Source of the DNA: Acidisarcina sp.
GTDB taxonomy: Bacteria > Acidobacteriota > Terriglobia > Terriglobales > Acidobacteriaceae
Assembly (NCBI GenBank): GCA_035539175.1
Contig: DATLIY010000011.1
Span: 62,001-126,000 of the forward strand
DNA length: 64,000 bases
Direction of reading: 5' to 3'
Below the pieces are notes generated by a model. That model had not been told where the DNA came from, searched no databases, and was given only the letters and a program-made list of their open reading frames with translations. The first letter of the stretch is position 1; every line of letters starts with the position of its first letter. A program made the translations under genes and the position numbers. Shown here piece by piece: positions 29,847-38,068 of the stretch.

Positions 29847-31337
29847 ATGGGCACAGGGAGACGGTTGGATTTGCAAAGTAACGAAAAATGCATGGTTACC
29901 AACGGAACCAGGATGACAGTCCTGGGGGGAGTCGCAGGTGCGGCGTTCCTGGCGTTAACCGCTCTGTTTGCAGCATCATTGGGAGCCGCACAGAACCAGA
30001 ACCAATCTTCGGCCCAGAATCCCTACTTTGGCAGCGTGACCACTACGGCAGCCAGGCCGGATGTGATGCCGATATCGCTCGACGATGCGATCCGCATGGC
30101 GTTGGAGAAGAATCTGGCACTGACCTTAACGCAGCAGGATGAAGGAATTGCCCACGCACAAAAGCTTGAGGCGCTGGCGCCGATGCTGCCTACGGTCACC
30201 GGCGAGGCGAGTACCGGGGTTCACCAGTACAATCTTGCCGCCCAGGGCTTCCGGCCCGGGCTGGTCCACAGCCTTTCGCCCGGCGCCATCCCTATGGTGG
30301 TGGTTGTGGACGTGACATCCGCCCAGGCTAATTATTCGCAGACCCTGTTCGACGCATCGCAGATCGCCAGTTATCGCTCCGCCCGCGCCAATGAGGAGGC
30401 GGCGCGGTTCGACACGCAATCCTCGCGCGGGCTGGTGGTTCTGGCGGTAGGCACGACCTATCTCCAGGCCGTCGCGGCGGCGTCCCGGGTGGAGTATGCC
30501 CGGGCCCTGTTGCGCACCGATGAAGTGCTGCTGAACCAGGCAGTGGAGCAACACAAGGCCGGAGTGGTCGCCAATCTGGACGAGCTGCGCGCCCGAGTGA
30601 TCTACCAGAGCCAGCAGCAGACCGTCATTGCAGCAGAGAACAGCTTTGAAAAGGCCAAGATCGCGCTGAATCGCGAGATCGGGCTTCCTGCCGAGCAGAA
30701 GATTGCCCTGAGCGACGCGGCTCCCTACCAAGATTTGGCAACCATCACGGTGGAAGAGGCACAGCAGCAGGCGTATCGCAGCCGGCAGGACTACCTCTCC
30801 ATGCAGTCGCAGGTGAAGGCGGCGCAGCTCCATCGCAACGCTGCCAGGTATGAGCGGCTGCCGACGCTCAGCTTCGGCGGAAATTACGGTGTTACGGGCA
30901 TCACGGGTGGGCTGTATCACGGAACCTTTGCCGCCGTTGGGTCGCTGAATCTTCCTCTCTTTGAGGAGGGCAAGCTGCGCGGAGACCGGGCAGTGGCGGA
31001 GGCACAACTGGGCAGCGCGATGTCGCAACTGGCGGATATGCGGTCGAAGATCGACGCGCAGCTTCGCGACAGTCTGCTGGACGTGCAGTCTTCCCAGGAC
31101 CTGGTGCGCGTGGCGCAGAGCAATATCGGCCTCGCCACAAAGACGCTGGAACAGGTGACGGATCGCTATCAGGCGGGCATTGACGACAATCTTCCGGTGG
31201 TGGAGGCGCAGAGCACCCTCGCGAATGCGCAATCGCAACTGGTGGATAGCCTGTACCGCTACAACCAGGCCAAGTTGGGGCTGGCGCGGAACCTTGGCAT
31301 CGTTGATACGCAGTACAAGGTTTACCTTGGGCGATAA
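29847..31337 (+). CDS. TolC-family outer-membrane efflux protein
   Basis: This protein of about 496 residues is built from two repeats of long amphipathic helices and strands typical of TolC/OEP channels. Conserved features are ISLDDAIRMALEKN after the mature start, YSQTLFDASQIASYRSARAN, LNREIGLP, and the second-half copy LPLFEEGKLRGDRAVAEAQ. The N-terminus carries a signal peptide (GAAFLALTALFAASLGAAQ). In-frame ATGs at 29892 and 29913 would give tidier signal peptides than the ATG at 29847, so the start is uncertain. It should form the trimeric exit duct of a tripartite pump. No adaptor or inner-membrane pump gene is adjacent, so its partners are encoded elsewhere. Confidence 0.88.
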   Translation: MGTGRRLDLQSNEKCMVTNGTRMTVLGGVAGAAFLALTALFAASLGAAQNQNQSSAQNPYFGSVTTTAARPDVMPISLDDAIRMALEKNLALTLTQQDEGIAHAQKLEALAPMLPTVTGEASTGVHQYNLAAQGFRPGLVHSLSPGAIPMVVVVDVTSAQANYSQTLFDASQIASYRSARANEEAARFDTQSSRGLVVLAVGTTYLQAVAAASRVEYARALLRTDEVLLNQAVEQHKAGVVANLDELRARVIYQSQQQTVIAAENSFEKAKIALNREIGLPAEQKIALSDAAPYQDLATITVEEAQQQAYRSRQDYLSMQSQVKAAQLHRNAARYERLPTLSFGGNYGVTGITGGLYHGTFAAVGSLNLPLFEEGKLRGDRAVAEAQLGSAMSQLADMRSKIDAQLRDSLLDVQSSQDLVRVAQSNIGLATKTLEQVTDRYQAGIDDNLPVVEAQSTLANAQSQLVDSLYRYNQAKLGLARNLGIVDTQYKVYLGR

Positions 31338-31350
31338 ACAATCCGCTGAA

Positions 31351-31540
31351 ATGAAGAAGCAGGTCCTTCGCTTCGCTCAGGATGACAAAGCTAGTGTGGG
31401 GATCAGAGCTGTTGCGGGAATGAAGAAGCAGGTCCTTCGCTTCGCTCAGGATGACAAGCTAGTGTGGCTAGCAGAGCCGCTTCGGCTCAGGATGACAAAG
31501 CTAGTGGCGGAGGAGCGGAGCCGTTGCGCGCAGGATGAAA
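31351..31540 (+). repeat. REP-like repeat cluster 2 (all forward orientation)
   Basis: Two full copies of the same element as in the 1135-2108 arrays (31352-31389 and 31421-31458), one variant (31471-31500, core reading CCGCTTCGGCTCAGGATGAC) and one degraded copy (about 31512-31540). They are separated by the same GCTAGTGTGGGG-like spacer. All lie on one strand, between the TolC-like gene and the aminotransferase gene. No GIY-YIG gene is present here. Confidence 0.85.
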
Positions 31541-31613
31541 ATTCGCGTCGGGTCCATACATTTCCCGGGAAAATGCAGACTCTTCCCCGGCGCAGCGACT
31601 AAGATGGATTTCC

Positions 31614-35066: not shown

Positions 35067-36218
35067 TCAGTCCATCGGCTGCGCGGGGAGTTCCTGCCGC
35101 AGGCGGTCCATTTCGCGGCGAAGCTGATCCATCTGCTGCGGAGTGAAGAGTTCGGGCATCTGCTGGCGCATCTCCTCCATCTGCTGTCGGATGGCGTCGG
35201 GGTTCACGCCACTCAGGGATTTGCGGACCTCTTCCGCCAGAGCCCTGGAATCTATGTTGGGCATTTCCTGCTTCGCACTGGCTACGAGGGCATCGATCTC
35301 GGCTTTGGAGGGTGCGAAGCCGGGCCAGTCCAGCTCACTCTTCTTTTTCTGGTTCTTGGGGGAGCCGGCCTGCATGGTCAGGACCTGCTGCTTGCGGTCG
35401 CGGACGATGGTGAGCTGGACGCTCTTGCCGTAGTTCTCGCGCAGTTCGCGCTCCCAGTCGGCACGGGTGCTCAACGTGTCCTGGTTGATCTTCAGGACGA
35501 CATCGTTTTGTTTCAGCCCGGCGGTGGCGGCGGGGCTCTTGCTATCCACGCTCTTGACCAGCAGACCCATCCCCTCCTGTACGCCGATGTAGTTGGCGAG
35601 CTGGGGGGCGACGGGATCCATTATGGCTCCCACGTAGAGGGCGCTGCCCTTGCCGAGGGACCAGCCTCCCATGAGGCCGTGGGGCGAGCCTGCAGTGGAG
35701 GAGTTGAAGCCCATGGCGGGAGGCGGCTCCGGGACGCTGATGTGGTTGTTCCATGCCTCCTGCTCGACGGTGGCGCGATCGGCAAGCTGTACGCTCACGT
35801 TGGTGAGCACACCGTTGCGGCTGACGACGAAGGTAACGGTTCTTCCGGAGGGAGTTTCGCGTAACAAGCGGCGGAGCTGCTCGACGCCTTCGACGGCCTG
35901 GCCATTCATTTCGAGGATGACGTCGTGGACTCTGAGGCCGGATTTGCCGGCTGGTGCGTCGTGGTCGACGGTGACGATTTCCGCGCCTTTGGCCTCCTTC
36001 AATTTGAGGGCACCGGCGCGGTCACTGTCGATGTCGCGAATGTCGACGCCAAGGTAGCCCTGCGAGGGGCGCGCCAGATAGGCAGGCGAATCCTGCATGG
36101 GCAGGAAAAATTGGCCTTCTCCCATGGCGGCATAGGCCGCGGGCGCTGCGAGACTGAGAGAACCAAGGCAGAACGAACCAAGAATGACGAACGAAACTCG
36201 CGTCAAGAAAGGATTCAT
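35067..36218 (-). CDS. Exported protein with two PDZ domains, no protease domain
   Basis: This protein of about 383 residues has a signal peptide (SFVILGSFCLGSLSLAAPAAYA) and two PDZ domains. The first (YLGVDIRDID to GLRVHDVILEMNGQAVEG) and the second (GLLVKSVDSKSPAATAGLKQNDVVLKINQ) carry the usual ligand-loop and GL-x-DVI pattern. A helical C-terminal region rich in Gln, Met and Arg follows (QMEEMRQQMPELF). There is no trypsin-like or metalloprotease domain, so it is not DegS/DegP or RseP. The ATG at 36218 puts the signal at the N-terminus. It is the third gene of an ECF sigma / anti-sigma operon (62-nt gap), so it may sense misfolded envelope proteins for that circuit. A hairpin GATGGAC/GTCCATC overlaps its stop codon. 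Confidence 0.82.
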   Translation of the reverse strand: MNPFLTRVSFVILGSFCLGSLSLAAPAAYAAMGEGQFFLPMQDSPAYLARPSQGYLGVDIRDIDSDRAGALKLKEAKGAEIVTVDHDAPAGKSGLRVHDVILEMNGQAVEGVEQLRRLLRETPSGRTVTFVVSRNGVLTNVSVQLADRATVEQEAWNNHISVPEPPPAMGFNSSTAGSPHGLMGGWSLGKGSALYVGAIMDPVAPQLANYIGVQEGMGLLVKSVDSKSPAATAGLKQNDVVLKINQDTLSTRADWERELRENYGKSVQLTIVRDRKQQVLTMQAGSPKNQKKKSELDWPGFAPSKAEIDALVASAKQEMPNIDSRALAEEVRKSLSGVNPDAIRQQMEEMRQQMPELFTPQQMDQLRREMDRLRQELPAQPMD

Positions 36219-36280
36219 CGCACGACTCCTGACTGCATTTCTTCCTCTGACGTTTTCCGGACGTACAGACCTCGCCGGCG

Positions 36281-37240
36281 TCATTGTATTTCGGGCAACT
36301 GGCTCAACACCTGTTGCGAAGCATTACGAATGTGTGGATTCTGGTCCTCAACCGCAACCGTGTGGAGCACCTGGCGCACGCTGCTGTCGGCCTCGACCGG
36401 TTGCAGAACGCTGATGGCCTGGGTGCGAACCGCCGGGTCACCGTCGCTCATCAGTATCTCCAGGACGGCATCGCGTACGCGCATGTCTTCCGCGATGAAG
36501 GGCTCCAGCCCGGCAAGCGCTTTACGGCGTACCGCCGGAGAGCGATCGTAGCGAGCGGAGACCATCAGGGCGTCGCGAACGGGGCCTCCGTTGCACTGGT
36601 GGCCGGCGCGGCACTCGGCGGCGAGCAGCCCGACGCTATTGCTGCGGATCTCGTTATCGCCATTGGCCTGCGCGGCGGCCAGCAGCAGACTCCGGATAAA
36701 GGGGTCGTCGAGCGAGCCGCGCATCTTGACGGGCACGACGCGGTCGTAGCTGACCTCCACTGTCTCCGAATCGGGCTCGCGCACGATGCTGCTGACGTTG
36801 GCAATCTGCGCGGAGCTTAAGTCCTCATTGGAAGCGGCAACAATGGCGGCGTTGGCCGCCGCCCGTTTCTCCGCCAGGTGATATCCGCCAAAAGCTCCGC
36901 CGCCAATGCCGAGCAGCAGGAGGACAGATGCGGCAACGGGGGCAGTACGCAGACGGCCTGCTCCGGCAAGCATGTTCTGTGCCAGGCGAACCATCCAGCT
37001 CTGCCGGGGAAGAGTATCGAGGGCGTCTTCCAGCCGGAGCCGCGTCCGCGCCAGCAGGTTGGCGGAGGGCTCCGTTACGGGATAGAGGTACATGGCCTGA
37101 TGGAGTGCCTGTACGGCCTCCAGTTCGCGGCGGCAGGCGTCGCAGATGGCAAGATGTCGATCGAGTTCCGGGCTGGCTTCGTCCGGCAGTTCCCCGTAGA
37201 CGGCAAGCGCTATTTTTTCTTGTGCCAGTTCGCACTTCAT
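36281..37240 (-). CDS. Transmembrane anti-sigma factor with periplasmic HEAT-like repeats
   Basis: This 319-residue protein has an N-terminal ZAS zinc-binding anti-sigma domain with H29-x3-C33-x2-C36 (HLAICDAC), a membrane helix at about 101-120 (PVAASVLLLLGIGGGAFGGY), and a periplasmic C-terminal half built of HEAT-like helical repeats (RDALMVSARYDRSPAVRRKALAGL, VRDAVLEILMSDGDPAVRTQAI, each shown as the repeat type). It sits 31 nt after the ECF sigma gene and is its likely inhibitor. HEAT repeats are protein-binding scaffolds, so the periplasmic part may bind a signal protein, perhaps the PDZ product encoded next. The fusion is not the RseA layout. Confidence 0.85.
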   Translation of the reverse strand: MKCELAQEKIALAVYGELPDEASPELDRHLAICDACRRELEAVQALHQAMYLYPVTEPSANLLARTRLRLEDALDTLPRQSWMVRLAQNMLAGAGRLRTAPVAASVLLLLGIGGGAFGGYHLAEKRAAANAAIVAASNEDLSSAQIANVSSIVREPDSETVEVSYDRVVPVKMRGSLDDPFIRSLLLAAAQANGDNEIRSNSVGLLAAECRAGHQCNGGPVRDALMVSARYDRSPAVRRKALAGLEPFIAEDMRVRDAVLEILMSDGDPAVRTQAISVLQPVEADSSVRQVLHTVAVEDQNPHIRNASQQVLSQLPEIQ

Positions 37241-37271
37241 GATGTTTCCTTTGGCCTCAACGTACTTCCGC

Positions 37272-37868
37272 TCAACGTAGTTCCGTCAGATGCGTCCTTA
37301 ACTTTCTGGTCGCACGGAAGAGGGTGTTTTTCGCCGTCTCTTCCGTGGTGTGCAGCATCTCTCCGATGGTCCTCAACTTCAGGCCCTGGTAGTGCTTCAA
37401 CTCAAAAACCATGCGTTCGCGCGGGGTTAGTGTGTCCAAAGCCGCCTTGATTTTCTGGGCAAGGAGCTTGCGGTCCAGTTCGCGGGCGGGGTTGGCTCCC
37501 GGACGCTCGTCGGACACATTGCTCAGCAGGTCGATCTCCTCGCCGGACGAATCCACCAGTATCGATTGCTCTTCGCGGCGGGATTTGCGGCGGCGAAGAT
37601 GGTCCAGGCAGAGATTGGTGACGATCCGGTAGAGCCAGGTATAAAACGAGCACTCAAAGCGGAAGTTCCCCAGATAGCGATAGGCCTTGAGAAAAGCTTC
37701 CTGGTGGATATCCTCGGCGTCGTGTTCGGAGCCCGTAAGATGCAGCGCAAGGCGTAACACCTGGGCATCGTATTGGCGCACCAGCGTGTCGAACGCTGCT
37801 CGCGAGCCCTGTTGGGCTTCACGAATCAGTTCCATCTCACTAGCTCGAGCCCGTTCGTCCTTCACCAT
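37272..37868 (-). CDS. ECF-type RNA polymerase sigma factor
   Basis: This protein of about 198 residues has region 2 (HDAEDIHQEAFLKAYRYLGNF, FYTWLYRIVTNLCLDHLRR) and region 4 (LTPRERMVFELKHYQGLKLRTIGEMLHTTEETAKN, a typical ECF helix-turn-helix), joined by a variable acidic linker. It recruits core RNA polymerase to a dedicated promoter set. The frame is open to 37967, but the ATG at 37868 (MVKDERARASEMELIREAQ) gives the family's normal length; no good ribosome site is visible. It is first in an operon with its anti-sigma factor and a double-PDZ protein. Confidence 0.9.
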   Translation of the reverse strand: MVKDERARASEMELIREAQQGSRAAFDTLVRQYDAQVLRLALHLTGSEHDAEDIHQEAFLKAYRYLGNFRFECSFYTWLYRIVTNLCLDHLRRRKSRREEQSILVDSSGEEIDLLSNVSDERPGANPARELDRKLLAQKIKAALDTLTPRERMVFELKHYQGLKLRTIGEMLHTTEETAKNTLFRATRKLRTHLTELR

Positions 37869-38068
37869 GCTTGAGGAGGATTGTACCCTCCGCGCGGATG
37901 TCCAGTTTTGTCCCGAAGCACAGTTCGAAGGGGAACGAAGGGTCAGGGCGTCAGCAGGCATCATCACGCTCCATCCTTGCCAAATCCAGCGCTGCCGGTG
38001 GCAGCGGCACTGGTTTAGACGATGGAGGGCAGGGTTTTGTGAGCGGGAATTCGCGGATTCAAAAGGAA

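Follow-up and report, generated by a model that had tools for sequence, protein, structure and literature searches.

Genes and domains of the operon

The minus strand of the window (the whole 64-kb stretch of DNA that was analysed) carries, between positions 35067 and 37961, the genes of an ECF sigma factor, a ZAS (zinc anti-sigma) protein and a protein with two PDZ domains, as read from the open reading frames and from Pfam matches (Table 1). The sigma and anti-sigma genes are separated by 31 nt, and the anti-sigma and PDZ genes by 62 nt. A preliminary description of this DNA had given both gaps correctly, and its domain assignments (an ECF sigma factor, a ZAS anti-sigma with a HEAT part, and two PDZ domains without a protease domain) are supported by Pfam. 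The sigma start that it placed at 37868 is probably wrong, however, since an N-terminal extension with an MPAD or MPAE start recurs in many, albeit not all, relatives, so that translation probably begins at an ATG 93 nt further upstream. The sigma factor matches Sigma70_r2 (1.2e-19) and Sigma70_r4_2 (2.6e-12), while a region-3 family is not listed, and TIGR02937 is also above its cut-off, so that the protein has the regions 2 and 4 without region 3 that characterise ECF sigma factors.

Table 1. Features of the operon and of its predicted promoter in the window.
Feature	Position	Strand	Basis
ECF-type promoter motif (predicted), GCTCAC (-35 part) N17 CGTCT (-10 part)	38017..38044	-	Same motif upstream of sigma in relatives
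ECF sigma factor, 229 aa (from the probable start)	37272..37961	-	Sigma70_r2 and r4_2 (scanned from 37868); MPAD-type start in relatives
Anti-sigma, 319 aa: ZAS, one membrane helix, periplasmic beta element and HEAT	36281..37240	-	zf-HC2, HEAT_2, invariant C3/H29/C33/C36, AlphaFold2 model
ZAS domain, residues 1-75	37016..37240	-	Family profile matches RsiW (5wuq, E 0.0015) and 3hug_B (E 9.3e-5)
Predicted membrane helix, residues 103-128	36857..36934	-	Helix in model; hydrophobic stretch read from sequence
HEAT domain, residues 178-319, four helical pairs	36284..36709	-	Pfam, AlphaFold2, Foldseek second look, profile search
Exported two-PDZ protein, 383 aa, signal peptide ending AYA	35067..36218	-	Pfam, AlphaFold2; signal peptide read from sequence
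PDZ1, HtrA-like, candidate carboxylate-binding loop YLGV	35781..36059	-	Best solved relatives are DegP-like PDZ1 domains
PDZ2	35370..35639	-	Nearest are site-2-protease (aq_1964) and DegQ PDZ domains

In the anti-sigma, Pfam places zf-HC2 at residues 3-37, barely above the cut-off (23 vs 22.2 bits), and HEAT_2 at residues 225-312. The four residues C3, H29, C33 and C36 are invariant in all 37 aligned anti-sigma sequences, and the HX3CX2C pattern together with the upstream candidate metal ligand assigns the protein to the ZAS family. From this family and from the operon, the protein would be expected to bind and inhibit its sigma factor. In the AlphaFold2 model (mean pLDDT 88.4, pTM 0.57), residues 148-314 form three strands and eight helices. 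With a profile built from the 37 sequences, alphaRep/HEAT proteins were matched at E values as low as 2.3e-21. A second structural look at residues 141-319 returned alphaRep, HEAT and ARM arrays at Z ~13, a score also attained by common repeat arrangements. With Foldseek alone, no match to the anti-sigma reached E ≤0.001, the best being an alphaRep at 1.9e-3. The antiparallel helix pairs in a superhelical array that define HEAT domains are thus supported by HEAT_2 above its cut-off, by the model and by the profile matches.

The start of the PDZ gene is preceded by an AGGAG site, while a longer open reading frame extends to 36284. Pfam finds no trypsin-like domain in the product, which is not classed as an HtrA protease, and the NCBIfam HtrA models score far below their cut-offs, with their PDZ parts as the best stretches. 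AlphaFold2 predicts two confident PDZ domains and C-terminal helices that are less sure (mean pLDDT 76.7). The loop pattern [YWF]-[LMIV]-G-[VIL] of PDZ1, taken as the first match after residue 20, is conserved in all 94 relatives, and PDZ1 can therefore probably bind C-termini. Elsewhere in the window, imperfect direct repeats at 31345-31549 (44 nt twice and 22 nt three times), which look like an intergenic repeat element, lie behind an outer-membrane-efflux-like gene at 29847-31337.

Conservation of the gene set in Terriglobia

Some match to the anti-sigma is present in 52 of 61 genomes, in several of them to the ZAS part alone. Within the family, the full-length protein is encoded in 35 of 37 genomes by our own tally of matches, which includes the window's own genome and counts G013 from two overlapping pieces; the exceptions are G003 and G006. 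Linkage was followed in loci from 28 (L032-L059) of the other 34 family genomes. In 27 of these loci the anti-sigma gene is followed, on its own strand, by a PDZ gene, the exception being L033 of genome G018. Among the nine class-level loci with an anti-sigma (L060-L068), the PDZ gene is downstream in six; L060 ends too soon to show it, and L062 and L063 have the anti-sigma and a further gene, described below, without a PDZ match downstream. These counts exclude L069, L070 and L071 of the 40 loci, as L069 and L071 have no anti-sigma BLAST match and L070 matches in the ZAS part only; sigma and PDZ matches are nevertheless present in L071. From genomes of named species, the best 80 of 148 confirmed relatives were retained, among them loci of Paracidobacterium acidisoli, Occallatibacter savannae and Acidicapsa dinghuensis; some come from the same genomes as the first set (e.g. 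L167, L175, L194 and L240). Among these best 80 of 148, sigma is upstream in 77, and the remaining three begin less than 200 bases from the anti-sigma, while the PDZ gene is found downstream in 76. The four exceptions are three loci that end within 1.2 kb and L172, in which 3.7 kb downstream contain no PDZ gene. Since the arrangement recurs across the family it is more than chance; the linkage also extends to other families of the class, and the gene set is an old module of Terriglobia, real and conserved; the conserved linkage for which the preliminary description had proposed to look is thus present.

A fourth gene, which the preliminary description had not mentioned, is present in most relatives outside the window's clade. 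It is encoded in all 25 paired loci there, usually between the anti-sigma and PDZ genes, and its product of ~400 aa has a signal-peptide-like start and Gly-rich repeats. Only one of the six fourth proteins scanned, from L068, matched DUF4097/Toastrack (PF13349) at E up to 0.01. In a tree of 94 paired loci (quick method, midpoint root), the 69 loci without the fourth gene fall on one side of a single branch (SH-aLRT 100), and the class-level loci L061, L064 and L065 carry the gene; this is most simply explained by a single loss within the clade of the window. The operon copies in the named loci matched at tblastn E 1e-95 or better, and a profile of the fourth protein gave only weaker matches in 11 clade genomes (best E 5e-27, away from the operon), in a search that had no four-gene genome as a yardstick. 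The fourth gene of L068 (6918-8738, G055) encodes a TonB C-terminal domain, suggesting that in this lineage the protein is connected with the outer membrane.

Two genomes bear on how firmly the PDZ gene is tied to the other two, one in each direction. In favour, the draft genome G006 (98% complete) has no anti-sigma match, and its best sigma shares only 36% identity, vs 59% in G012; its PDZ gene is a frameshifted remnant with internal stops (L296 6540-7532, G006:C35) behind an L9-like gene. No sigma, anti-sigma or fourth-gene match was found in the 13.5 kb around this remnant, and an L9 gene, by our own reading, also precedes sigma in the four-gene locus L041. Against, the PDZ gene of G018 is intact and lies ~317 kb away from the operon locus, and the motif discussed below was not found upstream of it in the searched form. 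The loss of linkage that the preliminary description had held to speak against its reading is therefore represented by this mild case, while linkage is otherwise general. Besides its operon copy, G012 encodes a second sigma factor (G012:C1:112220-112786) with 61% identity to that of the window.

Direct contact between the HEAT and PDZ domains is suggested by co-location and by nothing further. Co-variation of distances over the 94 paired loci revealed no HEAT-PDZ-specific signal, as the partial r given the sigma distances was 0.35 for PDZ1 and 0.29 for PDZ2 with HEAT, vs 0.26 and 0.39 with the cytoplasmic ZAS part. The C-terminus of the anti-sigma was considered as a PDZ ligand: its last residue is Q, E or D in 78 of the 80 named loci and is preceded by Ile in 61 of the 80. 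By entropy, however, the final four columns are no more than average for the HEAT part (52nd-62nd percentile, 94 loci), the protein is extended at its C-terminus in some distant relatives, and PDZ ligands do not usually end in a polar residue, so that this C-terminus is kept as a lead only.

Promoter motif and candidate targets

The preliminary description had proposed to look for a shared promoter motif, and one is present in front of the operon. The form GCTHAC-N16/17-CGTCY, that is GCT[ACT]AC-N16(17)-CGTC[CT], is present upstream of sigma in 52 of the 72 named loci with enough sequence there, while the other 20 are without the searched form. By comparison, 4 of 2193 control windows taken from these loci have it, and neither the reversed pattern (0 of 72) nor shuffles (0 of 1440) gave a match. 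The site before the operon is the sole match in the 64-kb window, where chance would give 0.19 and a match also arises in 18 of 100 shuffles; a lone match is therefore uninformative by itself, and its weight comes from its place and conservation. Given a motif upstream of sigma, the operon is probably self-activating.

A stricter form of the motif has 76 sites in 38 family genomes, vs 32 for the reversed control. In 11 of the 64 site loci examined an ECF sigma gene lies downstream, in one case (L131) at a place other than that genome's operon. In nine loci of nine family genomes, the product encoded downstream is a small exported protein (L083, L085, L094, L106, L121, L123, L134, L141 and L142); the one member scanned had no Pfam match. 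Seven of the nine open reading frames begin 238-341 nt downstream of their site, so that these genes are candidate targets only. The protein was not matched in nine clade genomes, in a search that had no positive control. Other recurrent products downstream of sites are a DUF2911 protein (three loci, one scanned) and another small protein (two loci), and a gene for an S55 (SpoIVB-like) peptidase follows one site (L140). Sites before BlaI/MecI-like genes (L112 and L258) were set aside as targets, since they presumably represent BlaI operators, which they resemble.

The genome of the window has nine motif sites vs 65 for the reversed control, and 11 clade genomes have 47 sites of a similar pattern vs 157; since the motif is rarer than its control, targets outside the operon are statistically unsupported in the clade. 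By open reading frames, only two of the nine sites are intergenic and upstream of a gene, namely that of the operon and one between divergent genes (C9:54619-54646 of the window's genome, G000; L080 1501-1528) that precedes a GWxTD-domain gene. The sequence and place of this site make the GWxTD gene a candidate target.

Release of the sigma factor and relation to known systems

The genome of the window encodes a membrane-anchored HtrA of 384 aa with one PDZ domain, DegS-like by layout, a second HtrA of 545 aa, and an RseP-like site-2 protease of 453 aa beside a putative dxr. The Pfam matches to these proteases are 3.9e-65 for PF02163 and 1.8e-37 and 4.6e-34 for PF13365; the DegS-like and RseP-like layouts and the identity of dxr were read by eye from the open reading frames. 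Site-1 and site-2 proteases of the kind required for sigmaE/RseA-type proteolysis are thus both present, so that ordinary regulated proteolysis is available without a protease in the operon. In E. coli, too, degS and rseP are encoded apart from the rpoE operon, which makes the difference from that pathway smaller than it appears. The preliminary description had raised a non-proteolytic circuit, in which the PDZ protein would bind the HEAT domain until the C-termini of unfolded proteins displace it; sigma would then be freed by a change in shape. Both partners would be periplasmic, HEAT arrays as a family bind peptides and proteins, and Pfam finds no protease domain in the three operon proteins, as this proposal would have it. 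Yet the genome encodes the two proteases, the domains lack a specific co-variation, and membrane-bound anti-sigmas are most frequently released by proteolysis, as stated in excerpts of PMC8103513. A non-proteolytic circuit is thus unsupported, displacement of this kind is quite improbable, and ordinary proteolysis is the more likely route of release.

The explanation put forward as the best one, with somewhat less than even confidence, is that the genes form an ECF sigma/anti-sigma module that is autoregulated, linked to the membrane and used by Terriglobia to monitor the cell envelope. Judging from the protein families, sigma would very likely be held in the cytoplasm by the ZAS domain, while the HEAT domain, on the periplasmic side, would serve for sensing or docking. 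It seems fairly probable that release proceeds by regulated proteolysis, in which the DegS-like HtrA and then RseP, both encoded elsewhere, would cut. The weakest step concerns the PDZ protein of the same operon, which may, as a tentative proposal, act as a periplasmic co-regulator whose PDZ1 binds C-termini and alters the cutting of the anti-sigma, either like RseB or as an adaptor, and so provides feedback. It is unlikely, although conceivable, that the module is a split sensor, in which a protease-free PDZ adaptor under the control of sigma would read periplasmic C-termini, dock on HEAT and gate a separate DegS-like cut, the older exported repeat-protein partner being dispensable.

The PDZ protein might instead be an output of the regulon without any part in sensing, serving as a periplasmic chaperone or quality-control binder for envelope repair, with which MucD and DegP help elsewhere. 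The position of its gene as the last of the operon under the sigma promoter, the exported proteins encoded by other motif-linked genes, and the intact though unlinked gene of G018 would agree with such a role, which is nonetheless somewhat unlikely. The constancy of the PDZ gene despite loss of the intervening gene, together with its decay in G006, favours a tight tie to the circuit and fits either an output or a co-regulator. It is highly improbable that HEAT chiefly senses another ligand, such as the exported repeat protein of four-gene relatives or its cargo, with something else now used in the window's clade. Outside the clade, the gene that directly follows the anti-sigma in the paired loci is the fourth gene, which was apparently lost once, but HEAT is retained in the clade after this loss, and the profile matches to the fourth protein in 11 clade genomes are only weaker ones away from the operon, in a search without a four-gene yardstick.

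An earlier description of the operon was not met in the literature searched, the scope of which did not extend to the ECF reclassification paper, so that absence from print is not established; nor was a study of envelope-stress sigma signalling in Acidobacteriota met there. The module is found in nearly every searched genome of one family, and its predicted promoter, few candidate targets, defined periplasmic sensor fold and partner make an uncharacterised envelope response directly testable.

From general knowledge and excerpts of PMC8103513, the operon resembles the sigmaE-RseA-RseB/DegS/RseP system of E. coli and the AlgU-MucA-MucB-MucC-MucD system of Pseudomonas in having an ECF sigma, a membrane-crossing anti-sigma and a periplasmic partner encoded in the operon. 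As in these systems, DegS-like and RseP-like proteases are encoded in the genome, but the anti-sigma has a HEAT domain in the periplasm. Furthermore, the partner consists of PDZ domains only, whereas MucD carries a protease domain. RseB/MucB has no Pfam match in the three operon proteins at E up to 0.1, and the operon is therefore not classed as rpoE-rseABC. The ZAS anti-sigmas RsiW, RsrA and 3hug_B, the last of which we take to be RslA, share the N-terminal HX3CX2C with an upstream Cys but differ in that only the present protein has the periplasmic HEAT domain. The fourth protein of the relatives has Gly-rich, beta-helix-like repeats as in the Toastrack/DUF4097 proteins of the PSP and Lia systems, a membership that is weakly supported (one of six). 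Excerpts of PMC11237479 report Toastrack contexts that include an operonically linked sigma factor and argue that Toastrack is intracellular, unlike the fourth protein with its signal-peptide-like start; 'pdz' is absent from the text of that paper.

The operon is thus a variant of the systems that pair an ECF sigma with a membrane anti-sigma, unusual in its periplasmic HEAT domain and with a partner that has only PDZ domains. Its PDZ1 resembles the DegP-type PDZ1 of the HtrA family (DegP/DegQ/DegS), from which the protein differs by the lack of a trypsin-like domain. The operon may be a natural example of PDZ recognition and proteolysis residing on separate proteins. DegS joins sensing and cutting in one chain; a split sensor, if true, would distribute them over two chains, with a HEAT scaffold between.
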